Source: Methylomonas albis
GTDB lineage: Bacteria > Pseudomonadota > Gammaproteobacteria > Methylococcales > Methylomonadaceae
Length of the DNA stretch: 64,000 nucleotides
NCBI RefSeq assembly: GCF_014850955.1
Contig: NZ_JACXSS010000001.1
Span: 1,302,001-1,366,000, forward strand
Direction of reading: 5' to 3'
Part shown: piece after piece, positions 922-15,700 of the stretch
How the letters are laid out: each line of letters starts with the position of its first letter
Position numbering within the stretch: the first letter of the stretch is position 1
Notes under the pieces: model-generated
What the model saw: only the letters and a program-made list of their open reading frames with translations
Database searches by the model: none
What the model was told of the DNA's origin: nothing
Translations under genes and position numbers: made by a program

Positions 922-2430
922 TTAATTTGTACCATTTTCCTGTGTCTTTTTGATTATATCGCTTAGATACTCCTTGGCAACCCAGCGCCCCATTAAGTAA
1001 TATGACCTTATTAGCTCATCATCATACTTTTGTTTCATTGTTTCAGTTTGTGGAAATCTGTCATTTTCATTTTTATTATTTTCGACATCTTTAACCGTTA
1101 AGTAATTCACCAAGTCGCTCTGACCGATACTGCTCAAATATTCAACAAAGCGTTTCGCGTTCCCATAGGATGCTTTTACATGCAATATTTTTCCGTTGTG
1201 ATTTTTGCATGTGTACTTACTTTCGTGTATGAGATTTTTTGAAAGGTCTACGTCGAGCCCAGGTTTTTCAACATCACAGCCAAGTAAGTTTTTGACTTGT
1301 TTTACAGCTATATCTAGATCTTCCCATGGATTTTTATTCAAATCGTTGTCTTTACCCATATACGAGATGACAATTAGATCAACGCCACGCTCTATCAATG
1401 GAACTAAGCCAAGATTGTCAGACTTTCCTCCGTCACTTAATACAATCTCTTTTCGTATTTCTTTTATGTTACTGCCGCGCCAATTACCAAGCAAAGAAAT
1501 TCTAGGTTGATAGAACAACTCATATTCATAAGATAACAGGACAGGAGCTCCAACTACACCAGAAGATGCTGCCATAGCAGCCGATAAACTATTCTCCGGC
1601 TTATCTTTTCGAAAAAGTGCGTTGTTAACCCATGCAAAATCTTTGGAGATATTGTTTACGAAAAATCCTTTTTTACACTTCATATCTGGATGGCAATCAG
1701 AAATAGTACCTATATTATCAAGGGTAAATTGAAACGGCATATTCATTTCACTTGCACCTTGCTCTGTTGTAGGAACAGAATGTGTTGCATTGATAATAAC
1801 ATACGGTTTAGTCCTGTAGTTCCGAGCACATGCACTATCGATTCCTGTCGATTTAATATCTTCTGCGTCAACATTACAATTGGGTAGATATACACTCTCG
1901 ATATACTCCTTCCATTGCCGCTTTCTTGCTTTTAATTTTGCGCCTTCAGCTGGCAATATTGCGAAGGGTTGTTCCGAGTTCAGCATTACTGCCGCATCAC
2001 AATCTGCTTTAGGATTTATAGCAGCCGTAAATAAGCAATTAAAAAACTCCTCGTCTGAAGAAGCCCATGCCCAATACCCACCGTTTGCCCAACTGCCGCC
2101 ACTAACAGATGAGATATAATCAATATCTAAAAGATTTTTCTTACTTTCATACAGGCCAGACAATATACCTAATTGATATGCAGAAGAACGTATGCCACCT
2201 CCAGATAGTGCTAATCCAGTTAAATGCTTAGGCCTAATTTCACTATCGTTTTCATTTTTTCTCAAATTTATTTTCTGGTATTCATGAGAGAAATATTTTT
2301 GTTGGTTGTTCAACCTAGCATTAGGGGTATTAACTAAATAAAATCCTGGCAGATTATCGCCAGATATCTCATCGGCGGTACAAATTGGCGAAATAAATAT
2401 GAAGACCAACAAAGCAATTGATTTTTTCAT
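922..2430 (-). CDS. Exported patatin-like phospholipase
   Basis: A 502-aa protein with a cleavable-looking signal peptide (residues 1-19, ending CTA-DE) followed by a patatin-type acyl hydrolase domain. The oxyanion loop is SGGGIR (about 76-81). The nucleophile elbow reads SVSGG around Ser110, with Ser in place of the first Gly of the usual GxSxG. The catalytic Asp lies in SDGGKSDNLG near residue 330. The family hydrolyses phospholipid or other lipid acyl esters using a Ser-Asp dyad. Export would place it in the periplasm or outside the cell, unlike the cytoplasmic patatin effectors of CBASS systems. It lies 131 bp downstream of the SLATT-like gene on the same strand and shares its low GC content, which suggests a transferred pair. 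Substrate unknown. Confidence 0.85.
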   Translation of the reverse strand: MKKSIALLVFIFISPICTADEISGDNLPGFYLVNTPNARLNNQQKYFSHEYQKINLRKNENDSEIRPKHLTGLALSGGGIRSSAYQLGILSGLYESKKNLLDIDYISSVSGGSWANGGYWAWASSDEEFFNCLFTAAINPKADCDAAVMLNSEQPFAILPAEGAKLKARKRQWKEYIESVYLPNCNVDAEDIKSTGIDSACARNYRTKPYVIINATHSVPTTEQGASEMNMPFQFTLDNIGTISDCHPDMKCKKGFFVNNISKDFAWVNNALFRKDKPENSLSAAMAASSGVVGAPVLLSYEYELFYQPRISLLGNWRGSNIKEIRKEIVLSDGGKSDNLGLVPLIERGVDLIVISYMGKDNDLNKNPWEDLDIAVKQVKNLLGCDVEKPGLDVDLSKNLIHESKYTCKNHNGKILHVKASYGNAKRFVEYLSSIGQSDLVNYLTVKDVENNKNENDRFPQTETMKQKYDDELIRSYYLMGRWVAKEYLSDIIKKTQENGTN

Positions 2431-2561
2431 TATACATTCCTCTTTTTAGGTGTAATCTGTTTGGGCCAAGTGAAAAAACAAGATACATTTTTGCTAACGA
2501 TGCAAATCACTGGCTATAGAAGAAACACAGCAGAGTGATTTTGAATTGTTATATTGTGGAC

Positions 2562-2957
2562 TTAAAACCAAGGTTTTGCGTCGATAGTTGAAATAAACTC
2601 AGCGTACTGCTGCTCTAGTGATTTCATCCTCTCTTCTTTGTTTTCATTTTCCAAAGTTAGTGCCTGATACTTTAATTTGAGAGATGCATATTGAGCGCCT
2701 ATGGCACGACACTTTTGCTGGTGTGTTTCACAACCCATCCAACCATGGAGCCCCGTCAGTGAGCCTCCAATCAAGGCCATATAACCTGCAATATTTTCAT
2801 ATTGATTACTGATAATTGCAGTACCACCTACGAATGCTAAAAGAGAACCACCCCCAACAAGAAAAAAATTAGGAATGCGCAGAACATTTAGCCAGCGATC
2901 ATAATCATTTGCCATATTGCCGCATTCAACGACTCTGGTATTAATCAGTTCATCCAT
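2562..2957 (-). CDS. SLATT-like two-TM membrane protein
   Basis: 131 aa. Two hydrophobic segments at about residues 29-50 and 56-75 are followed by a long charged helix (80-120) rich in Glu, Lys and Gln. The order of elements fits the SLATT family (SMODS and SLOG-associating two-TM domain): a preceding YDRWLNVLRIP helix, two membrane helices with little loop, then a WMGCETHQQKCRAIGAQY helix. Many SLATT proteins are predicted membrane-disrupting effectors near nucleotide-signalling genes, but no nucleotidyltransferase or SLOG partner is visible here. The neighbour downstream is the exported patatin. The domain call is from pattern memory and needs a profile search. AT-rich compared with the rest of the window. 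Confidence 0.6.
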   Translation of the reverse strand: MDELINTRVVECGNMANDYDRWLNVLRIPNFFLVGGGSLLAFVGGTAIISNQYENIAGYMALIGGSLTGLHGWMGCETHQQKCRAIGAQYASLKLKYQALTLENENKEERMKSLEQQYAEFISTIDAKPWF

Positions 2958-5720: not shown

Positions 5721-5930
5721 ACTATCTACCCAAAAAAGTCCAAAACCCTAGCGATCACCTTGTTACCACCGAATCAGGTAAAGGGTTAGCCGCCGAACGG
5801 TGCATCGCGCAACAATGCTTACCACTAAAATTCTATGGGGCGTGCAGCCAGTTTGGCACTGTCGAGTATTTCACGCCTGTTAGTCTTTTATTCAGTCGCC
5901 GATACACAAGAAACCGGTCAGGTTTATTTC

Positions 5931-5959
5931 CTTACGTTTCATAAGGATTGGACTATAAT
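5931..5959 (+). promoter_or_regulatory. Candidate sigma-70 promoter of the glycyl-radical operon
   Basis: A consensus -10 box TATAAT lies at 5954-5959, about 105 bp upstream of the start codon. The hexamer 17 bp further upstream, CTTACG, is a poor -35 match, so an activator may be needed. No FNR box (TTGAT-N4-ATCAA) was seen nearby. The roughly 100-nt leader is GC-rich. Confidence 0.4.
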
Positions 5960-6065
5960 TTAGATGTGCATCACAAAAAATAGCCGGGGCAGGGAGTTGG
6001 CGGTCACCCCGCAGGCTGCCGGCATACGCTTTCGAGGGATCGTTTTGTTGTAAAGGAGATTGAAC

Positions 6066-9038
6066 ATGTCTGTTCCCTATCCATCATCCGACGGCGGTAT
6101 TTCGGTGGAGCTCGGCAAGGGCTCCGCAACGCCAGTGTTGGACGCCGGTAAAGTCGACTTATTTCCCATCGCCAACCAAGACTTCGAAAAAATCAAAACC
6201 CTGAAGGATTTGGCGTTACGTAACATCACCCTGGAACAATTCCCGATAGTGGGCGCTTGGCGCGATAAGCTGTTCGCGCCGGAAGGTACGCCGGAAATTT
6301 GCGACGAGTTGCCGCGATTGCTGACCGAGTTTTTACGTCGGCCCGAGAGCCAGGCGTTACCGGCTTACACTCGGCGCGCCCAAGCGTTGCGTTATGTTTT
6401 TGCCAACAAAACCGCGATCGTTAAAGCCGACGATCTGCTGCCCGGCCAAACTACCACCAGCTTTGTTGGTCCGGTGGTCTACGCCGATACCATCGGTTAT
6501 TGCATCTGGCCGGAACTGAAAACCGTCACGACCCGCGCGCAAAATCCGTTCAAGATTCGCCCGGAAGTGGCCGACCGCCTGAATCGGGAGATATTTCCAT
6601 TTTGGTTGGAACAGAAGCCAATCCAAGAGCTGGCCCGCTATAGCGATTACGATAGTGCCGACTATGAAAATCGGGATAGAGTAGCCGGCAGTTACCCGCC
6701 ATCCATCGATCCGCCATTACGTAAAAAAGCCGGACAAACCCCAAAAGCCCAGGAATTGATGGAGCGTGTGGCGTTCTTCCTGTCCGACAAAGCCACCTGC
6801 GTCTCGCATACCGTGCCCGATTTCGAACGGGTTTTGAAATATGGTTTCGATGGCCTAATTGAGCGGGCCCGGCAAGACATCGCCAACGGCGCGGCGGCCA
6901 CGCCGCAGCAGGTAGAGTTTCTGGAAGGCGTAATTGAAGTTTACGAAGGTGCCAAAATTTATGCGGAACACTTAGCGGAGGCTGCCGAGCGCGTTGGCAA
7001 TCAGGCGCTGGCCGCCATCTGCCGGAAAGTGCCGGCCCAGCCCGCAGACACTTTGCATGAAGCGCTGACGGTAGTCTGGATTTGCTATCACCTGTTGCTA
7101 CAGGAAAACACCAATTTCGGCTTTTCCATCGGCCGCCTGGACCAAATCCTCAACCCGTTCTACCTGGCCGATTGGCAAAAGCTGGATAGCGCTGCGGAGC
7201 GGGACAATTACACACGCCGTGCCGTGGAGTTGGTCAGTCATTTCTTTCTGCATTGCTCCGACCACGTGCCGCTGTCTACGTCCGGTTCGGAAACGCTATT
7301 TGCCGGCAGTGGCTCCAACCAGGCCCTGACTGTGGGCGGTACGCGCTACGAAAACGGCCAAGCCGTCGATGCAGTCAACGACATGACCTACATCATCCTC
7401 AAGGCCACCGAAATTTTGTCGATTCGCGATCCGAACGTGCACGCCCGCTATCACCGAGACGTGCATCACCGCGACGCGCAAGGTAATCCCCTGCCAACCG
7501 AGGTGATGGATCCTTACCTAAGACGGATTTGCCAGGTCAACATCCTGACCCGAGCCACACCGGCACTGCATGGTGACGCAGCGGTGGTGCCGGCCATGGC
7601 CGGTTATTATGCGGCGCACACCGGCATCAGCCCGGAAGAAGCCTTGGCGGATGCCTATGATTACACCTCGATTGGCTGCATCGAAGAAAACGCCGCGCAC
7701 AAGCATTACGGCAACACCGGTTCGACCTTGATGGTGCTGCCGGCGGTGTTGGAGTTGGCTTTGTTCGGCGGCAAGCATCGCAGCGACGGCGTGGCGCCGA
7801 AATCGCCTAATCTGTTTTACGGCGACGAGCGCTATACGACGCCGCCGTTGACCACTGTCGCTAGCATGCAAACCTTTATCGAAGCCTTCAGGTTTCAGTT
7901 AAACGAAATGGCCCGGCATGTCGTGCAATGCAACAATTACTTTGGCCGATTCTATGAGCAATCCCGGCAGTCGCCGTTTTTGTCCGGTTTATTTACCGGG
8001 CCGAGCAATACCCCGGACAGTAATGGCGCCAGTTTTCGCGACGTATCCGCCGGCGGTGCTAAATACAATTCGGCGGGCATTGCAATCATCGGTTTGGCCG
8101 ATGTGATCGACTCATTTTGCGTACTGGATAGCTTGGTGTTTAGTGGCAAAGTTGCTGCGGGGGAATTGTTGGCGGCGATGCAGGCCGACTTCGATGAAAA
8201 CGGTTTACAGCCGAAAAGCCCCTGGGCGGCATTTCTGGAGCGAGTGCAAAGTTGGTTACATCCCGAGGATGCGCCGCTGAGTTTGCCTAATCTAAGCCAA
8301 GATCGGTTAAAACAAATCAAGGAAATGGTGCGCTTGGCCCCCAAATACGGTGCCGGCGTCGACCAAACTCCCGGCGGCATTTATAACAATGCCGCGGCGG
8401 TGAAATACACGCATCTATTGACCGAAATGTTGCAGGAGGTGTTTGCCCAATACCGCACCCATCGCGGCGGACGTTATCTACCCGGTTACTGGAGCATGAC
8501 CAACCATGCCGGCTTCGGCATGTTGACCAAGGCCACGCCCAATGGCCGGCGTAGCGGCGAGTCGTTTGCCAGTGGCATTACGCCTTGCCCCGGCGTGGTG
8601 AAAGCCAACGGCGAGCCGGTCAATTTGCTGGATCATATGCTGTCGGTTACTTCGGTGAATGCCAACACCGTGCAGAACGGCTACACCTATAACCTCAGCC
8701 TGACTACTCGCGATAGAGGCCATTTCGAAGCGGATACCGAATTGTTCTCGCGCTATATGAAAGCTTTTGCCGACCAAAACGGCGTGCTGGTACAAATGTG
8801 CGTGTCGTCTATCAACGATCTGGTCGCCGCCGACCGCGCAGCCACGGCCGCCGGCCAGACCGGCGCCGGCGATGCCGAACATAAAGCTCTGGAGCCTTTC
8901 AAGGACTTGATGATACGGGTAGCGGGTTACTCGGCGTATTTCGTCACGCTCAGCCCGCAAATGCGCAAAGAAATTATACAACGAGCCAATTTTGGCTTGG
9001 ACACCGGCGCCGAGCAACATACGCTTAGCGCACTTTAA
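6066..9038 (+). CDS. Glycyl radical enzyme (pyruvate formate-lyase family, unassigned subtype)
   Basis: A 990-aa protein starting at ATG 6066, seven bases after AAAGGAG; a TTG six bases earlier is less likely. It carries both hallmarks of the glycyl radical family. The active-site loop is SIGCIEENAAH with the thiyl cysteine at Cys538 followed by Glu540, as in dehydratase and lyase members. The C-terminal radical loop is IRVAGYSAYFV with Gly954. SHTVPDFERVLKYG and the LSPQMRKEIIQR tail also match the family. It is longer than typical members (about 780-860 aa), with extra sequence at the N-terminus. The loop reads GCIEE rather than the common GC(V/I)EP, so the substrate cannot be assigned. The activase is encoded two genes downstream. 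Such enzymes are inactivated by oxygen, so it should act in anoxia. Confidence 0.95.
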   Translation: MSVPYPSSDGGISVELGKGSATPVLDAGKVDLFPIANQDFEKIKTLKDLALRNITLEQFPIVGAWRDKLFAPEGTPEICDELPRLLTEFLRRPESQALPAYTRRAQALRYVFANKTAIVKADDLLPGQTTTSFVGPVVYADTIGYCIWPELKTVTTRAQNPFKIRPEVADRLNREIFPFWLEQKPIQELARYSDYDSADYENRDRVAGSYPPSIDPPLRKKAGQTPKAQELMERVAFFLSDKATCVSHTVPDFERVLKYGFDGLIERARQDIANGAAATPQQVEFLEGVIEVYEGAKIYAEHLAEAAERVGNQALAAICRKVPAQPADTLHEALTVVWICYHLLLQENTNFGFSIGRLDQILNPFYLADWQKLDSAAERDNYTRRAVELVSHFFLHCSDHVPLSTSGSETLFAGSGSNQALTVGGTRYENGQAVDAVNDMTYIILKATEILSIRDPNVHARYHRDVHHRDAQGNPLPTEVMDPYLRRICQVNILTRATPALHGDAAVVPAMAGYYAAHTGISPEEALADAYDYTSIGCIEENAAHKHYGNTGSTLMVLPAVLELALFGGKHRSDGVAPKSPNLFYGDERYTTPPLTTVASMQTFIEAFRFQLNEMARHVVQCNNYFGRFYEQSRQSPFLSGLFTGPSNTPDSNGASFRDVSAGGAKYNSAGIAIIGLADVIDSFCVLDSLVFSGKVAAGELLAAMQADFDENGLQPKSPWAAFLERVQSWLHPEDAPLSLPNLSQDRLKQIKEMVRLAPKYGAGVDQTPGGIYNNAAAVKYTHLLTEMLQEVFAQYRTHRGGRYLPGYWSMTNHAGFGMLTKATPNGRRSGESFASGITPCPGVVKANGEPVNLLDHMLSVTSVNANTVQNGYTYNLSLTTRDRGHFEADTELFSRYMKAFADQNGVLVQMCVSSINDLVAADRAATAAGQTGAGDAEHKALEPFKDLMIRVAGYSAYFVTLSPQMRKEIIQRANFGLDTGAEQHTLSAL

Positions 9039-9051
9039 TAGGAGAACTGTC

Positions 9052-9705
9052 ATGCATGCCGGATTTCCCTGTTTAATGCCGAATTTACAAAAAACCTTAC
9101 GCTTAGGCAGTAATGCCGCCATTGATGCAGGCGAGTTGCCGGCGGTGTTGGATAAAATCGAGGGCCGGCTGCTGGCCAGCGGTATGGCGGTAGCCTTGCG
9201 CCTCGGGTTTGGCTATTTGTTGCGCGATTGTCATCTGGATGCCGCTCAAGCCGCCAAGGCCCATGCTTTTTTCGAGGAAAACTTCGTGATTGTCGATCCC
9301 TTGGCACCGGGTGGCCGTCGTTATTACCAAGGCAAATTTCTGATCCGCACCAGCCGGCGCGGCGACGATATGAACGTGCTGCTCAGGTTTTGTCCCAATC
9401 CCGATTCACTGTATATCAAGACTCCATTCGGACAGGCGCTAAATTCGCTGGCGCTAGTCGATACGCAAGTGCTGACCGAAAGTCAGGCCGACCAAATTGA
9501 GAGCGATCCCAGCCGAGTGGATTTAGTGGTGCGCTTTAAGGACGTGCAATCCATCGTCGGTCTGCTGGGCCGTCCGGGCGTGGATATTGTCGGCTTGCTG
9601 CTGGAGAACCTGGTGCAACTGACCGGCCATGTCGGTCATTTGTTCAAATTGGGCGCAATCGCCACGGATATCCAGTTGTCCTTGGATATTCCCGACGCGG
9701 CCTGA
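9052..9705 (+). CDS. Unknown protein of the glycyl-radical operon, SCP2-like C-terminal half
   Basis: 217 aa; the start at ATG 9052 is set by AGGAG six bases upstream and 13 bp after the glycyl radical enzyme. I do not recognise the whole protein. The second half, with VDLVVRFKDVQSIVGLLG, a short helical stretch and a final GHLFKLGAIATDIQLSL strand, resembles the layout of SCP2 sterol-carrier domains (beta-rich sheet, helix, late gly-rich strand), which bind lipids or fatty acyl chains. This is a pattern impression, not a database result. No signal peptide or membrane helix. Its place between the enzyme and its activase suggests a substrate carrier or an assembly role. Confidence 0.7.
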   Translation: MHAGFPCLMPNLQKTLRLGSNAAIDAGELPAVLDKIEGRLLASGMAVALRLGFGYLLRDCHLDAAQAAKAHAFFEENFVIVDPLAPGGRRYYQGKFLIRTSRRGDDMNVLLRFCPNPDSLYIKTPFGQALNSLALVDTQVLTESQADQIESDPSRVDLVVRFKDVQSIVGLLGRPGVDIVGLLLENLVQLTGHVGHLFKLGAIATDIQLSLDIPDAA

Positions 9706-9720
9706 ACATGGAGCGCGAAG

Positions 9721-10617
9721 ATGGACAGCAAAGCCTACATCTTCGATATCAAACGCAACACCAGCGAAGATGGGCCAGGCATCCGTACCACGGTGTTTTT
9801 CAAAGGCTGTCCGCTGCGTTGCAGTTGGTGTCAAAACCCAGAAGGCATCGCTTCGGGGCCGTCCTTATCTTTTCGTGCCGAGTTATGCCATCCGGACGAC
9901 TGTGAGCTGCCTTGTATCAAAGCTTGTAAAGCCAAGGCCTTAACCCTGCAAGACCGGCAACTGCGGTTTGACAGGGAGCGTTGCGACCAATGCGGACGCT
10001 GTGCGACGGTGTGCTCGCGGCATGCCCTGGAACAGGTTGGTCTATGGCTGGGTGTGGACGAGCTGTTTTATCGAGTGGCCATCGATAAGCCATTTTTCGA
10101 CGCTACTGGCGGTGGCGTTACTGCATCCGGCGGTGAATGCACTATGCAGATGAATTTCCTACACGAATTTTTCAAAAAACTGAAAGCCACCGGCATTCAT
10201 ACCGCCATCGAAACCAACGGCATGTTTAATTTTGGCCGGTTCTCACGTTTGTTGTTACCGTGGCTGGATTTGATTTATTTCGACCTAAAATTGATAGACG
10301 AAGCCGCCAGCATTCTGCACACCGGTCATTCCAATCGGCCGATTTTGGATAATCTGCGGCGTCTGGCCGAGATTGCCAAAATCCCGGTTGAAGTGCGGAT
10401 TCCGCTGATTCCCGGCATTACCGCCACCGAGGCCAATCTGCAAGGGCTAGCCGTTTTTTTGCGCGACCTAGGCATCAAGCAGGTTAACGTCCTACCTTAT
10501 AACCCTCTGTGGCTCGATAAATTGCAGCGTTTTGGCGTCGATACCGAGTATCGGCACGACGCCTTTATGAGCGATGCCCAAATTAAGCACTGCATCGAGA
10601 GTATGCAAAACGCTTGA
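9721..10617 (+). CDS. Glycyl-radical enzyme activating enzyme (radical SAM)
   Basis: A 298-aa radical SAM protein. The N-terminal site is C30-PLR-C34-SW-C37, the CX3CX2C motif that binds the SAM-cleaving 4Fe-4S cluster. Inserted after it is a ferredoxin-like region with two further cysteine sets (Cys56, 61, 65, 69 and Cys88, 91, 94, 98), as in activases of dehydratase-type glycyl radical enzymes but not in PflA. GGGVTASGGEC is the SAM-binding GGE region and IETNGMF follows. The enzyme would abstract hydrogen from Gly954 of the first gene of the operon. GGAG eight bases before ATG 9721 supports the start. It lies 15 bp after the preceding gene. Confidence 0.95.
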   Translation: MDSKAYIFDIKRNTSEDGPGIRTTVFFKGCPLRCSWCQNPEGIASGPSLSFRAELCHPDDCELPCIKACKAKALTLQDRQLRFDRERCDQCGRCATVCSRHALEQVGLWLGVDELFYRVAIDKPFFDATGGGVTASGGECTMQMNFLHEFFKKLKATGIHTAIETNGMFNFGRFSRLLLPWLDLIYFDLKLIDEAASILHTGHSNRPILDNLRRLAEIAKIPVEVRIPLIPGITATEANLQGLAVFLRDLGIKQVNVLPYNPLWLDKLQRFGVDTEYRHDAFMSDAQIKHCIESMQNA

Positions 10618-10634
10618 ACTCAAGGAGAGTCATC

Positions 10635-11693
10635 ATGCAAACCGATTTCCATCACGCCGTTACCTATGTCGTCGCCCGTACCGCCGGATTCGTTCACCAG
10701 GAGGCCGACATCATTGCTTATTCGGCGCAATATGTGGACGACGCCGTCAGCGAAGGTGTCGTGCATTTCGACAACGACGCCTTTTATGCGCGGATTCATT
10801 CCTCGCATAAAAGCACCGATGTCGGTAATTTAAACAATGATTACAACCACTTGATCTGGTTGCCGTTCCATTTTCTGCCGGGTAACGGCGGCAAAGGTCC
10901 GGGCGAAGATCCGGAAGGCACGTTTATCCAAAAAATCGTCTGCCTGCCGGATAGTCCGCCGGCCAAGGAGATGGTGCAGGCGGCAGTCAATGATAAAGGC
11001 AAACCTTACAGCTTGCATCGACTGGGGATTGCCTTGCATGTGTATGCCGATACTTGGTCGCACCAAGGTTTCGCCGGGGTAATTCACGAAATCAACAACG
11101 TCGAACATGCCAGGGAACTAAAGAGCTCTGGCATGTATAGCCAACAGCTGCAGCATGTGCTTGAGGATATTCTGGATGACGTGATTCCACCGCTGGGACA
11201 TGGCCGTGCCAAGAACTTTCCGGATCTGCCGTTTTTACATTGGCAATATAAGAACGGTCGCGGTGTCTGGATAGATCGGGATAACGCCTCGGATTTCTGC
11301 ACGGCGGCGGACGCGATGTGTAAAGTCATGCAGCAATATCTGGGCAAAGCGCAGAGTGGATTGCCGGTTGCCGACCAAACCCTGCTGCAAAAAATCTTCC
11401 TTGATTTAAAGATTAAGGAAGACAAAGCCCGCCATGCCAAATGGCTGGAGATCGTCAAGAAAGGCTTCAATGGCGAAAAATTCAGCTTCGGTACGGCCGA
11501 GATCAGCTATGCCGCCGAAGGCGCCAATTCCTGGAAGGAAATAGCTTTGGGCAGTAGTTGGGATATGCGCGTGCACCAATACACGCCGGCATTTTTGGGC
11601 AGCAACTGGAAGTTGTTTCACGACGCCCTGCAATTGCATCGTTTGACAGTGCTGCACGATATTTTGCCCAAATACGGTATTTGTGCGGGCTGA
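10635..11693 (+). CDS. DUF6765-like histidine-rich protein
   Basis: 352 aa from ATG 10635, preceded by AAGGAGAG; an earlier in-frame start at 10614 overlaps the activase end and lacks a ribosome site. The protein begins with a conserved-looking MQTDFHHAVTYVVARTAGF and has IAYSAQYVDDAV, SLHRLGIALHVYADTWSHQGF and HRLTVLHDILPKYG. The HVYADTWSH element recalls the His-Asp-His pattern of zinc-dependent phospholipase C-like helical proteins. From memory it fits the uncharacterised DUF6765 family. No signal peptide or membrane segment, so it should be cytoplasmic. With the lipase-like gene downstream it suggests a lipid or phospholipid-related role, but no reaction can be claimed. Confidence 0.75.
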   Translation: MQTDFHHAVTYVVARTAGFVHQEADIIAYSAQYVDDAVSEGVVHFDNDAFYARIHSSHKSTDVGNLNNDYNHLIWLPFHFLPGNGGKGPGEDPEGTFIQKIVCLPDSPPAKEMVQAAVNDKGKPYSLHRLGIALHVYADTWSHQGFAGVIHEINNVEHARELKSSGMYSQQLQHVLEDILDDVIPPLGHGRAKNFPDLPFLHWQYKNGRGVWIDRDNASDFCTAADAMCKVMQQYLGKAQSGLPVADQTLLQKIFLDLKIKEDKARHAKWLEIVKKGFNGEKFSFGTAEISYAAEGANSWKEIALGSSWDMRVHQYTPAFLGSNWKLFHDALQLHRLTVLHDILPKYGICAG

Positions 11694-11715
11694 GCCGATA
11701 AACAGGAGATTAAAC

Positions 11716-12579
11716 ATGAATGCCAAACCCGAATCCGATCTAGCGTGCCGGACTCTGTATCCCATCGTGTTGCTGCACGGCGTCGGTTACCGCGACGACA
11801 TGCTGATGTTAAATTCCTGGGGGCGGATTCCCAAAGTACTGGAAGCTGCCGGCGCAAAGATTTTTCAGGGCGGCCTGGACGCCTGGAATAGCCATGAAAC
11901 CAGCGCGATTGCCCTGAAGCCCAATATTGAACAGGTACTCACCGAAACCGGCGCAGCCAAGGTCAATATCGTCGCCCATTCCAAGGGTGGCCTGGAAGCG
12001 CGTTACCTGATATCCAAGCTGGATATGGCCGATAAGGTCGCCAGTCTGACGACGATTTGCACACCGCATCATGGTTCGGCCGTGGCGGATTTGGTGGCCG
12101 GCGACATTCCCGATACGCAAAACGTGCTGAGCGTAAATTTCTTCAAACGTCTGGCGCAGCGATTGGGGTTCGGCGCGATGGACATTCTGGCCAGAATCAC
12201 CGGCGACAAAAGCCCACAAGCCGGCCTGGCCATCAGACAGCTGACACGCGCTTATCTGGCGGAATTTAATCAACAAGTAACGGATGCGCCCGGCGTCTAC
12301 TACCAAAGCTACGGCAGCATGATGCGCCGGGCTATCGACGATCCGATGTTTGCCGCCACGCAGGTTTTGCTGAAGCAGATAGAAGGCGAAAACGATGGCA
12401 TGGTCTCCACCCAGTCCTGCCAATGGGGCAGATTTCGCGGTTTGATCGGCGCCAGCAATCCGGACAAAGGTTTGTCGCATGGCGACTTGGTCGACTATCG
12501 CGGCTTCCTGCTGACGCATTTCGATGTCCCGGCAGCGTATCTCGACATAGTCAAAGACTTAAAACAACAAGGCTTTTAA
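11716..12579 (+). CDS. Alpha/beta-hydrolase, bacterial lipase family I-like
   Basis: 287 aa from ATG 11716, with AGGAGA upstream. The order of motifs is that of true bacterial triacylglycerol lipases: YPIVLLHGVGY (oxyanion HG), GAAKVNIVAHSKGGLEARY (nucleophile elbow A-H-S-K-G, the Ser being catalytic, with Ala instead of the first Gly), then LTTICTPHHGSAVADLV. The later acidic residue and a GLSHGDLVDYRGF stretch supply candidate Asp and His. Unlike secreted family I lipases there is no signal peptide, so the protein appears cytoplasmic. It may hydrolyse or transfer an acyl ester in the pathway of the glycyl radical enzyme. 22 bp after the preceding gene. Confidence 0.85.
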   Translation: MNAKPESDLACRTLYPIVLLHGVGYRDDMLMLNSWGRIPKVLEAAGAKIFQGGLDAWNSHETSAIALKPNIEQVLTETGAAKVNIVAHSKGGLEARYLISKLDMADKVASLTTICTPHHGSAVADLVAGDIPDTQNVLSVNFFKRLAQRLGFGAMDILARITGDKSPQAGLAIRQLTRAYLAEFNQQVTDAPGVYYQSYGSMMRRAIDDPMFAATQVLLKQIEGENDGMVSTQSCQWGRFRGLIGASNPDKGLSHGDLVDYRGFLLTHFDVPAAYLDIVKDLKQQGF

Positions 12580-12638
12580 ACGGCGGGATTTTATGTCCCA
12601 GCCTAAGCCAACAATATAACCATCACAGGGGATGGACC

Positions 12639-15026
12639 ATGAACAATTATCTAAACGTCGCCAATTTCCCAAGTGCGTCAGAGGATGAAAGGCAAGCGTT
12701 GGGCAGCGCTCTCGACGCCATTCTGACCAACGATTTCAAAGCCGGAGCGTTACCGATGCTCGGCAGTTATCGGAAGATTTTGGGGGACAATCTCCGCCGC
12801 GAGGAATGGGAGGCTATCCACGAAAAGCTGCTGACTTTATTTAAATGCGGCACGAGCACGCCACTGGACGGCCCGATGATCGGTGTGTCGATGTCGATTC
12901 GCGATAGTGATTATTTCAAGGAAGCCGCCAAGAAACACGGCGAAAATCGTTCTATGCTGGCGCATCTGGAATGGATGGCGACCTTATGGAATGTCACTTA
13001 CGCCAGCACCGGTTTATGGATGGGCAAAACCTTTGAGCCGGTGACTAAAGAGGTATTCGCCGCCAAATGCGGTCACGACCCGGTGGCGAGTTTTGCTTAC
13101 GATCCGGACGTGGCCCGTATCGGTCGGAATTTTTTCCGCGACCCGGACGACCCCAATTTTATTCAAAGCTTGGGTATGCCAGTGCTGACACAGTTCTGGA
13201 ATTTAAAAGACCGGCCTTTGGATACCAAGGCTCAGGGCTTCGATAGCCAATTGCTGGCCGAAAATCTGGCCAAGGAAAAAGCCATTCCGTATGTGAAAAC
13301 CGGCGGGATTTTCCTGGCTTCGCCTGGCAAGTCGGTGGTTGGCGACATGGCCGGCAAAGCCGTGTATCAGCTTAATTATCGATGGCATGACCTCCATCCG
13401 GCATTCCCGATGACGCGGCTAATCGATGAGTTGGTGCAGATCGATGACGGCATCTATTTGGGGCAGTTGGTGATGGCCACTCACCATTACAGTATGGGTA
13501 CTTTGCAGATACCTTTGTTTGGCGATCATCCGCCGGAGTGGGAGTTGGGCGCAGCGTACACGGGTGATAACTCGATAGATTACGGTTATCAAAATAACGG
13601 CTTCTTTTTGATGATAGATACCGCTCGCGCCAGGGAAGCATTCGCCGACGCAGCCTTTCCTAACCTGCGGCCTAGGCCCGGTGAGCGCGGCTGGAAGGAA
13701 TTGGGTTACGACAAACCCGTGCCGGCCAAAGCGGGTGCCGTTCCGGACAGCGTGGATTGGGCCTGTGGTTGGCGTGACGACCCGGTGTTGCAGCGTAAAT
13801 TCACGACATTTTGCCTGGAAGCGTCGCCAAAAAGTGATGATGGCGATGTGCGTGAATTGCTGCAGCCAGGCGAATCGATTTTGCAAATGTTGCAAAGCCA
13901 GCAAGGCAAAATTTCTGCGGCCAGTGGTTTTGACGATCATCTTCGGCATTTTGAAGTGCTGAATCGGCTGTTTCGTTGCGGCGTTGCGCCGCGCATTGTC
14001 GATGGCGTGTTTCAAGGCCAGGGTAGGGGCTATAACACTCGCTTCGATGCGCCCGAAGCGCGTGACTGGTATGGAAGTGGCGATCCGTGCCAGGGTTTCG
14101 ACTATTATCATGGCGCCACGTTGAATGTGCATTGGGGCTTTGGCGATAGTTTTATTGCCAACATCGCCCGATCTTTGCAGGAACACGGCATGATTCCAGC
14201 CGCCCTGGCTGATAAGCTGCAAAACGATCCGCGCGCGCCCAATTTGCTGAACGCGGTATGGGCCAATATCGGCCGATTTATTTTTCCGTGGGCGGGTAAA
14301 TCGTTCGAACGTATCAGCGGTCGCAAGTTGAGCATGCTGCTGGATGAGAGCGACGACTTAGCCCGGCGCTATCCCGAACGGGTCGCAGCGCTAAAAGCTC
14401 ATCCGGCCAGTTTTCCGCATTACGCCTTGGTCGAGAAAAACCGCGAGCATTATTGGCCAGAGCCGGGCGTTTACGCCGAGCATCTAAGCAGCGGTAGTTG
14501 GGACCAGGGTATGTCTAAAACCGACAAGGCCTTTTGGGAACGGGAAGCCGCCGAACATTGGGTGTTTGGCAATAACATCCAGGATTCGCGCATTCTGGTC
14601 ACCGACGCCTTGTTCCGGGTATTGGATATGAATTACCACCCGCCGTTGCCGTCCATACAGCAATTAGCCGATTCCGGACCGTCGCCGTTCGTCAGGCAGG
14701 GCTATAGCTTTTTGGGCGTGGATGATAGGGAATCGATTTTGCCGATGAATAACGGCCCGGAAGCCGCTAAGAAAGTATTCCAGTTTCATTACCGCTATCC
14801 GCTGATTGGTGGCCCGGCGCCTATCGGCACCTGCCTGGACGAACTGGTGGAAATCGCGGAAGGCTTGTTCCTGGGACAACTGATTTATGCCACAGACTTG
14901 CTGGTGCCGTTTCACTCGGCCACCGATCCGGCGGAATATCAGTACCAATTATTCGGCTATTTTCTGTTGTTGGATAACACCTGGGAGCAACATCGGCAGG
15001 CGATAGGCTTTGATGTAAACATTTAA
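12639..15026 (+). CDS. Large unrecognised protein with internal duplication
   Basis: 795 aa from ATG 12639, with CAGGGGATG upstream; longer upstream frames run into the lipase gene. I do not recognise the family. Residues about 243-327 (YQLNYRW, RLIDELVQIDDGIYLGQLV, ending NNGFFLMID) and about 714-778 (FQFHYRY, CLDELVEIAEGLFLGQLI, ending FGYFLLLD) are clearly related, indicating an internal duplication of a roughly 70-85-residue beta-rich unit with a DELV-I-G-LGQL core. The middle is rich in aromatic residues and His (WGFGDSFIANI, HHYSMGTLQIPLFG). No signal peptide, membrane helix or cofactor motif was found. As the last gene of the operon it may be a partner enzyme or a lipid-binding protein. 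Confidence 0.85.
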   Translation: MNNYLNVANFPSASEDERQALGSALDAILTNDFKAGALPMLGSYRKILGDNLRREEWEAIHEKLLTLFKCGTSTPLDGPMIGVSMSIRDSDYFKEAAKKHGENRSMLAHLEWMATLWNVTYASTGLWMGKTFEPVTKEVFAAKCGHDPVASFAYDPDVARIGRNFFRDPDDPNFIQSLGMPVLTQFWNLKDRPLDTKAQGFDSQLLAENLAKEKAIPYVKTGGIFLASPGKSVVGDMAGKAVYQLNYRWHDLHPAFPMTRLIDELVQIDDGIYLGQLVMATHHYSMGTLQIPLFGDHPPEWELGAAYTGDNSIDYGYQNNGFFLMIDTARAREAFADAAFPNLRPRPGERGWKELGYDKPVPAKAGAVPDSVDWACGWRDDPVLQRKFTTFCLEASPKSDDGDVRELLQPGESILQMLQSQQGKISAASGFDDHLRHFEVLNRLFRCGVAPRIVDGVFQGQGRGYNTRFDAPEARDWYGSGDPCQGFDYYHGATLNVHWGFGDSFIANIARSLQEHGMIPAALADKLQNDPRAPNLLNAVWANIGRFIFPWAGKSFERISGRKLSMLLDESDDLARRYPERVAALKAHPASFPHYALVEKNREHYWPEPGVYAEHLSSGSWDQGMSKTDKAFWEREAAEHWVFGNNIQDSRILVTDALFRVLDMNYHPPLPSIQQLADSGPSPFVRQGYSFLGVDDRESILPMNNGPEAAKKVFQFHYRYPLIGGPAPIGTCLDELVEIAEGLFLGQLIYATDLLVPFHSATDPAEYQYQLFGYFLLLDNTWEQHRQAIGFDVNI

Positions 15027-15175: not shown

Positions 15176-15700
15176 TTAGCGTTTTTCGTCATTCTCTTCG
15201 CCAATTTCCCATTCCTCAATTGCGGTTTCGATTATTTTGCCGCTGGCGGCGTCGACTTCGATTTTGGTTTCTAAACCTTTGTCGTTGACGATGTCGAATT
15301 CATAAGACGAGCCGCCGTTTTCCTCGACTTCGTATTCGACTTCCTCAATCTTGCCGGGGTTGGCTTTTAGCGCAATCGCAGCCGCATCTTCTTCGGTGAC
15401 TTTGACATTCTTTTTGAAGGCCTGGCTATTGGGGTCGGACACCTCTGATTCTTTTTCAGTCAGCTTGCCGCTGTCGGCATCGCACATGAACTCCCATTCC
15501 TGGCGGTTGTTGTCGCGCAGTTCCAATTCATAAGCGCCTTTGCCGGAGACAGTTAGTTTTTCCAACTTGATTAGCTCTCCGGCCTTGTCTTTTTTAGCCG
15601 CCTGAATGCAATTTTCCAGCCCTTGATCTGCCGCGACGGCAAGCCCGGACAAAGCCCCAAAACTGGCCAATATAGATAATGTTAATAATGACTTTTTCAT
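15176..15700 (-). CDS. Exported PepSY-domain protein
   Basis: 174 aa with a classical signal peptide (residues 1-23, cut after AVAA) and a very acidic mature part. Two PepSY-like units are visible: the first around residues 25-85 ends with MCDADSGKL, the second around 100-165 contains EEDAAAIALKANPGKIEEVEYE, SSYEFDIVNDKG and VDAASGKIIE. The repeated D-A-SGK end is typical of the family. PepSY proteins sit in the periplasm and are thought to modulate peptidases or bind other components; the precise role is unknown. A LuxR-type regulator gene is 44 bp upstream on the same strand and may be transcribed with it. Confidence 0.88.
   Translation of the reverse strand: MKKSLLTLSILASFGALSGLAVAADQGLENCIQAAKKDKAGELIKLEKLTVSGKGAYELELRDNNRQEWEFMCDADSGKLTEKESEVSDPNSQAFKKNVKVTEEDAAAIALKANPGKIEEVEYEVEENGGSSYEFDIVNDKGLETKIEVDAASGKIIETAIEEWEIGEENDEKR

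Follow-up and report, generated by a model that had tools for sequence, protein, structure and literature searches.

A six-gene cassette in Methylomonas albis

The window analysed here is a stretch of 64,000 nucleotides from Methylomonas albis (contig NZ_JACXSS010000001.1, positions 1,302,001 to 1,366,000), in which positions 6066-15026 carry six intact open reading frames (ORFs), all on the + strand, in the order glycyl radical enzyme (GRE), 217-aa protein, activase, DUF6765 protein, lipase-fold protein and ORF6. This group, referred to below as the cassette, had been described in a previous sequence-only reading as a GRE operon with hydrolase and lipid-binding-like partners, an interpretation that is partly supported by the comparisons reported here. 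The features are as follows.

5925..6065, + strand: conserved upstream stretch with the ATTTCCTTA arm, a TCCTTA-N8-AAGGA inverted repeat, a TATAAT-like box and the leader
6066..9038, + strand: GRE, 990 aa, with Cys538, Glu540 and Gly954 (Pfam PFL-like, alignment)
9052..9705, + strand: 217-aa orphan protein, situated between GRE and activase in relatives
9721..10617, + strand: radical SAM glycyl radical activase, 298 aa, with a ferredoxin-like insert (Pfam radical SAM plus Fer4; TIGR02494)
10635..11693, + strand: DUF6765 protein, 352 aa, probable metallohydrolase (Pfam)
11716..12579, + strand: lipase-fold (alpha/beta-hydrolase) protein, 287 aa, with an AHSKG nucleophile motif (Pfam, translation)
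12639..15026, + strand: ORF6, 795-aa orphan with an internal repeat; relatives support the start

As the sequence-only reading had stated, the six genes share one strand and are closely spaced (gaps of 13, 15, 17, 22 and 59 bp), and a GGAG- or GGGG-type stretch of the Shine-Dalgarno kind precedes every one of the six starts. The starts at 6066, 9052, 9721, 10635, 11716 and 12639 are backed by comparison with relatives. Two other candidates were discarded, namely the TTG at 10614 for DUF6765, which is not conserved while the ATG at 10635 is, and the ATG at 12423 for ORF6, which is not conserved in relatives. The mean dN/dS against nine relatives is 0.059 for the GRE, 0.096, 0.106, 0.075 and 0.115 for the next four genes and 0.063 for ORF6; all six genes are under purifying selection. 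Because this dN/dS is low and the same six genes stand in identical order in all ten cassette-bearing genomes of the Methylomonas genus, the arrangement is more than a chance grouping. The host genome (5.4 Mb) encodes a single PFL-like enzyme, the cassette GRE, and also contains two AMO/PMO-family genes.

A glycyl radical enzyme outside the subtypes tested

The GRE matches the PFL-like Pfam model (PF02901) with an E-value of 6.3e-100, which assigns it the barrel of this family. The Pfam Gly_radical model (PF01228) reaches only 18.1 bits on the same protein, compared with a cut-off of 22.2, and finds no match in the host genome, so that annotation can overlook this enzyme. Residue conservation was read from a 14-row alignment of cassette members. 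Cys538, Glu540 and Gly954 are invariant in all 14 rows, in agreement with the earlier description of an intact enzyme, and so are the C-x-E loop, Thr551, the RVAGYSA loop and His248, which aligns with His164 of glycerol dehydratase. Furthermore, the cassette rows contain an invariant HARYHxxVHHR insert, the stretch GGKHRSDG and a variable insert near residues 711-745, which are without counterpart in the aligned references. After Glu540, the Methylomonas rows have E and all other aligned rows Q (GCIEE vs GCIEQ), and proline is not a general feature of this position in other GREs (T in YbiW, L in PflD). Therefore, the GCIEE loop, which had been proposed as the mark of a distinct subtype, was abandoned as a marker.

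The placement outside the subtypes tested is instead carried by profile scores and phylogeny. On the NCBIfam equivalog models, with cut-offs of 1000-1150 bits, the window GRE obtained 193.5 (CutC), 138.5 (HypD), 192.3 (HpsG), 171.7 (HpfG), 60.6 (HPAD) and 120.3 bits (indoleacetate decarboxylase). The GREs of two relatives likewise fail these cut-offs, and none of the three cassette GREs exceeds 208.6 bits on any equivalog or 339.2 on the broad subfamily model (cut-off 678.2). On the pyruvate formate-lyase (PFL) model, the cassette GRE scored 28.6 bits vs a cut-off of 994.2. CutC, YbiW and PflD proteins gave 307.6-594.2 bits on eliminase or decarboxylase models other than their own; a true PFL, in contrast, scores as low on these models as the cassette GREs do (113.9-147.6 bits on those among the models listed).

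A tree of 29 rows unites the 14 cassette GREs in a single clade with a support of 100/100. The stem of this clade measures 3.87 changes per column, compared with 2.31 for CutC, 1.65 for PflD, 1.44 for YbiW and 7.49 for PFL, and the program warns of long-branch joins, which leaves the nearest neighbour of the cassette clade unsure. HypD, IslA, HPAD, indoleacetate decarboxylase, benzylsuccinate synthase and glycerol dehydratase are without reference rows in this tree and were judged by profile scores, IslA by its score in the PDB comparison only (139 bits). By these scores and this tree, the cassette GRE is a subfamily apart from every subtype tested, as the sequence-only reading had proposed: it fails the equivalog cut-offs tested and is not placed inside any characterised subtype. 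The invariant Cys538, Glu540 and Gly954 point to elimination or decarboxylation and not to PFL chemistry.

Among known systems, A. fulgidus PFL2 (2f3o), glycerol dehydratase (1r8w) and CutC (9f3w) resemble the cassette enzyme in the PFL-like barrel, the G-C-x-E loop, the RVAG loop and the use of a radical SAM activase; however, the profile scores of the cassette GRE are only 224.9, 207.3 and 195 bits, respectively. YbiW and PflD of enterobacteria, listed in the PDB as probable dehydratases, share the C-x-E loop and the overall family, but they give high cross-scores on the eliminase and decarboxylase models, where cassette GREs are far lower. A GRE on an Acinetobacter towneri plasmid (NZ_CP127890.1), 25.0% identical, stands beside the cassette clade with a support of 94/97; this join is not starred and falls under the long-branch warning (own branch of 3 vs the cassette stem of 3.87 changes per column). 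No DUF6765 and no neighbour of ORF6 size is annotated in the 12.4 kb examined there. As a separate observation on the family, a 1209-aa ORF in another genome (L117:2779-6405, G655:C10) encodes both a DyP-type peroxidase part and a PFL-like GRE.

Distribution and gene order in relatives

Related cassettes were found in 27 distinct genomes. Whole-genome searches covered the phylum, and other phyla were covered only by a pattern scan that reaches none but close relatives. The GRE query was positive in 10 of 37 genomes of the Methylomonas genus, host included, and in none of the 24 other genomes of the order. Of the 369 genomes searched in the class, three were positive at E ≤ 1e-100 (the host G000, G112 and G382). 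At E ≤ 1e-75, the count was 3/398 for the phylum (G000, G382 and G578), 1/48 for the class of G578, 3/76 around G112, corresponding to 3 of the 13 genomes in the G112 family (a third family, with G112, G811 and G806), and 13/81 around G382, corresponding to 13 of the 49 genomes in its genus. Since G382 possesses a locus of the order amoC-amoA-amoB, this genus is regarded as an ammonia oxidiser, and we take it to be Nitrosomonas-like. An AMO test of five genomes of the genus gave three matches each in G382, G857 and G859, one in G844 and none in G816; there was no match in G112, G811, G806 or G578.

The GRE, the 217-aa gene and the activase are contiguous in 26 of the 27 cassettes; the 27th (G806) consists of ORF6 and GRE followed by the contig end and is undecidable. 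ORF6 is adjacent in 24/27, DUF6765 in 20/27 and the lipase in 10/27, the latter exclusively in the Methylomonas genus. Conservation of the partner genes beside the GRE, which the sequence-only reading had made the touchstone of its proposal, thus holds in relatives, with the lipase confined to one genus. In the ammonia oxidisers, ORF6 directly precedes the GRE (12/13; the cassette of G817 begins inside the GRE at a contig end), while the 217-aa gene and activase follow it in 13/13 and DUF6765 comes next in 9/13. The remaining cassettes are composed of GRE, 217-aa gene, activase and DUF6765 in G112, whose ORF6 is encoded at a separate locus close to a class 3 lipase gene, of GRE, 217-aa gene, activase and ORF6 in G811, and of GRE, 217-aa gene and activase in G578. 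G841, which counts among the 26, has its GRE in two pieces (L055 and L056) that lie about 235 kb from each other and overlap by about 48 residues, either by rearrangement or by misassembly. No additional neighbour is common to different lineages among the gene clusters present in three or more of 24 loci.

Within the class, the 217-aa family occurs in 2 of 266 genomes, both GRE-positive, and ORF6 in 3 of 321. In G859 (L046:8711-12346), a minor sequence difference at the stop codon of the GRE fuses it in frame with the 217-aa protein. The fusion would be in keeping with physically associated proteins, but it may be a sequencing error. The ORF6 of G382 (L019:5842-8301) is interrupted by a single in-frame stop close to the beginning of the gene.

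Among 72,556 plasmid records, 52 have a match to the GRE, each below 60% identity and with 26.0% at most among the 20 matches listed; neither ORF6 nor the 217-aa protein has a plasmid match. One scan of viral contigs with a 3-row GRE alignment revealed no relative, and phages, where the other cassette proteins were not sought, contained no DUF6765 match. A literature search covering titles, abstract beginnings and the matches listed, with most subscription journals outside its coverage, returned nothing on this GRE in Methylomonas, methanotrophs or Nitrosomonas.

Partner proteins

The activase scored 259.7 bits on TIGR02494, a GRE-activase subfamily model with a cut-off of 174.35. The two extra Fe-S cysteine sets noted in the sequence-only reading, which form the ferredoxin-like insert, are present in Methylomonas, G112 and G578 and missing from the ammonia-oxidiser and G811 forms. 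Because the latter activases lack them, these sets are dispensable.

The DUF6765 protein matches its Pfam family (PF20551) with 341 bits (cut-off 26.6; E = 1.2e-101). At least eleven Asp and His residues, including H135xxxD139xxxH143, are invariant over eight cassette and three plasmid rows, and a plasmid homologue shows a weak Zn-phospholipase C match (E = 0.04), which together suggest that DUF6765 is probably a metallohydrolase. Whole-length homologues with 43.0, 30.1 and 27.9% identity are found on Aeromonas, Photobacterium and Vibrio plasmids, respectively. Each of these genes (L125, L126 and L127) is preceded by two small hypothetical genes of about 220 and 90 aa, and ThiF/MPN, Fic or restriction genes lie in the neighbourhoods.

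Several alpha/beta-hydrolase Pfam models exceed their cut-offs on the lipase-fold protein, for example Palm_thioest (35.2 bits, cut-off 26.8), and the AHSKG serine nucleophile motif is present, so that both fold and motif are those of a lipase-like hydrolase. As it occurs in the ten Methylomonas-genus cassettes only, this protein cannot define the core reaction.

The earlier naming of DUF6765, a lipase-fold protein and an unrecognised 795-aa protein was borne out, with Pfam matches for the first two; ORF6 and the 217-aa protein of the window match no Pfam family. The best E-values were 0.11 and 0.14 in a Pfam scan of 14 homologues of the 217-aa protein and 13 of ORF6, and 0.19 and 0.31 in the PDB profile comparison, respectively. 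A PDB fold search with the low-confidence 217-aa model (pLDDT 40.6) yielded no match at E ≤ 0.001. The SCP2-like character previously ascribed to the 217-aa protein could not be confirmed: none of 14 family members matches SCP2 (PF02036), and hhalign of the family against five SCP2 proteins gave a probability of 0.8% with E = 0.074, compared with E = 0.43 for the reversed control. With the PDB profile, Pfam and hhalign results negative or inconclusive, SCP2 homology was not demonstrated. Within ORF6, hhalign detects an internal repeat that spans 103 columns, with a probability of 98.4%.

An anti-phage defence function was considered and set aside. The best PADLOC matches were pVip for the activase (0.00067, a radical SAM match) and ATPase-Toprim for DUF6765 (0.017), and the models found nothing for the other four cassette proteins.

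Upstream region and oxygen control

The ATTTCCTTA arm lies upstream of the operon in 10/10 Methylomonas-genus genomes and the inverted repeat TCCTTA-N8-AAGGA in five of these ten. The TATAAT-like box was noted by eye; a promoter scan placed no + strand site ahead of the operon. No RNA element is claimed for the conserved leader, which has no Rfam match and in which only one of the 28 pairs predicted shows a change in both partners.

To assess FNR boxes, 300 bp upstream of 21 cassette or ORF6 starts were scanned (four from the ten Methylomonas-genus genomes, twelve from ammonia oxidisers, four from the G112 family including two G112 loci, and that of G578), with expectations taken from first-order Markov shuffles. 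A perfect TTGATNNNNATCAA box is located upstream of 5 of the 21 starts, compared with 0.02 expected, and a box with one mismatch upstream of 7, compared with 0.6 expected. All five perfect loci belong to ammonia oxidisers, and four of them, which share the same spacing pairs, probably represent one lineage. The window itself has a two-mismatch site only, of a kind that chance would place in about 5 of 21 regions, and no FNR box is claimed there. Of all 134 loci (1,184,097 bases), eight contain a perfect box, namely the five above and three (L018, L063 and L084) where it lies away from any cassette start. The box at L063:3488-3501 (G382) precedes the start of amoC in an amo operon by about 250 bp.

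Combined, these boxes lend some support to low-oxygen control in the ammonia oxidisers, not in Methylomonas itself. Of the earlier picture of an aerobic methanotroph facing hypoxia, the methanotroph part agrees with the two AMO/PMO-family genes of the host, and the hypoxia part has FNR support in the ammonia oxidisers only.

Proposed function and alternative explanations

Glycyl radicals are destroyed by oxygen. The reading we favour, which is quite possibly correct and which we hold tentatively, is that the cassette encodes an oxygen-sensitive radical pathway run by an as yet unassigned GRE subfamily, most likely with elimination chemistry. In its favour stand the invariant active-site features, the activase score, the adjacency of GRE, 217-aa gene and activase with ORF6 and DUF6765 as frequent neighbours, the in-frame fusion in G859, the low dN/dS, and the five perfect FNR boxes with a Crp/Fnr-family gene beside the same loci. 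Under oxygen limitation, the activase would place the radical on Gly954, and Cys538 would then become a thiyl radical and abstract a hydrogen atom from the substrate. With Glu540 acting as a base, a 1,2-elimination of the dehydratase or lyase type would be the most likely outcome. The 217-aa protein may accompany the GRE as a small partner or carry its substrate; DUF6765, in Methylomonas together with the lipase, may release this substrate from an ester or phosphoester; and ORF6 may assist with binding or with the step that follows. A bulky substrate is probable, while its identity as a lipid is a guess.

Several observations weigh against this reading. The C-x-E loop is also found in GRE decarboxylases and hence does not settle the reaction, and His281, Ser282, Tyr339 and Asp447 of glycerol dehydratase, residues with functional roles in that enzyme, are not kept in the aligned cassette GRE. 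The linkage is not exclusive, with DUF6765 present on three plasmids where no GRE is annotated in the 17 kb examined and a broken, partial ORF6 at a contig end in G291, for which the class search reported no GRE. Structure models built from six-row alignments (the window plus L011-L015) are of low confidence (pLDDT 40.6 for the 217-aa protein, 31.7 for ORF6), so that the roles given to these two proteins derive from gene order. In addition, the five FNR boxes probably go back to one or two lineages, and their target may be the Crp/Fnr-family gene that adjoins the cassette at these loci.

PMC11574389 names two classes among the GREs of gut metabolism, eliminases and decarboxylases. Decarboxylation by the GRE of an acid of the aryl- or alkyl-acetate type, which the partners would supply or remove, has this classification and the shared C-x-E loop in its favour, yet the decarboxylase models gave the lowest profile scores compared (indoleacetate decarboxylase 120.3 and HPAD 60.6 vs CutC 193.5 bits) and the HPAD chain only 47.9 bits in the PDB comparison. 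All these scores are far under cut-off and provide a ranking, not a decision; we regard this reading as improbable. Formation of a carbon-carbon bond by an X-succinate-type synthase would accommodate the small orphan proteins beside the GRE, as such synthases have small subunits, and 8iof, designated by its depositors as a benzylsuccinate synthase alpha subunit, reached 162.8 bits. However, TutD and MasD gave only 66.7 and 67.0 bits, and the acid residue two positions after the cysteine is kept, as in eliminases, which makes this explanation very unlikely. An ordinary fermentative pyruvate or 2-ketobutyrate formate-lyase for anoxic survival is hardly credible: the PFL-like Pfam match speaks for it, but the Cys-Cys of the PFL reference is replaced by Gly-Cys in the active site, the PFL model score is far under its cut-off, and the PFL references form a separate tree group.

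With regard to the substrate, a low-oxygen pathway of methane and ammonia oxidisers might remodel or salvage a membrane lipid or another bulky ester, the hydrolases freeing it, the 217-aa protein carrying it and the GRE eliminating a group; this seems doubtful to us. Somewhat less doubtful is a non-lipid bulky or polymeric substrate, such as a glycan- or peptide-linked group, which DUF6765 would release and ORF6 bind, the Methylomonas lipase being incidental. The restriction of the lipase to 10 of 27 cassettes, the SCP2 result and the lack of a lipid-metabolism neighbour common across lineages (among the clusters in at least 3 of 24 loci) favour the non-lipid substrate, while the class 3 lipase gene that adjoins ORF6 in G112 and the weak Zn-phospholipase C match of a DUF6765 homologue speak against it. 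The acyl or hydrophobic substrate of the sequence-only reading is accordingly an open guess, with the lipase lineage-specific, SCP2 homology not established and DUF6765 also found without a GRE.

An oxygen-sensitive enzyme cassette is thus retained under purifying selection in methanotrophs and is also present in ammonia oxidisers, groups known for oxygen-based life. It would mark a low-oxygen metabolic capacity in two groups of importance to the methane and nitrogen cycles, and it brings with it two orphan protein families, the 217-aa protein and ORF6. The use of such an enzyme by an aerobe is testable in culturable Methylomonas species. If the lipid reading were true, glycyl radical chemistry would act on a lipid-type substrate in organisms regarded as aerobes.

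Neighbouring genes

At window positions 922-2957 on the - strand, a 131-aa orphan is followed downstream by a patatin-like phospholipase gene, for which no connection with the operon was seen. On the other side, a PepSY-domain gene (15176-15700, - strand) is convergent with the operon, and a gene of this kind also adjoins four other Methylomonas cassettes in the stretches examined (L011, L013, L014 and L023).

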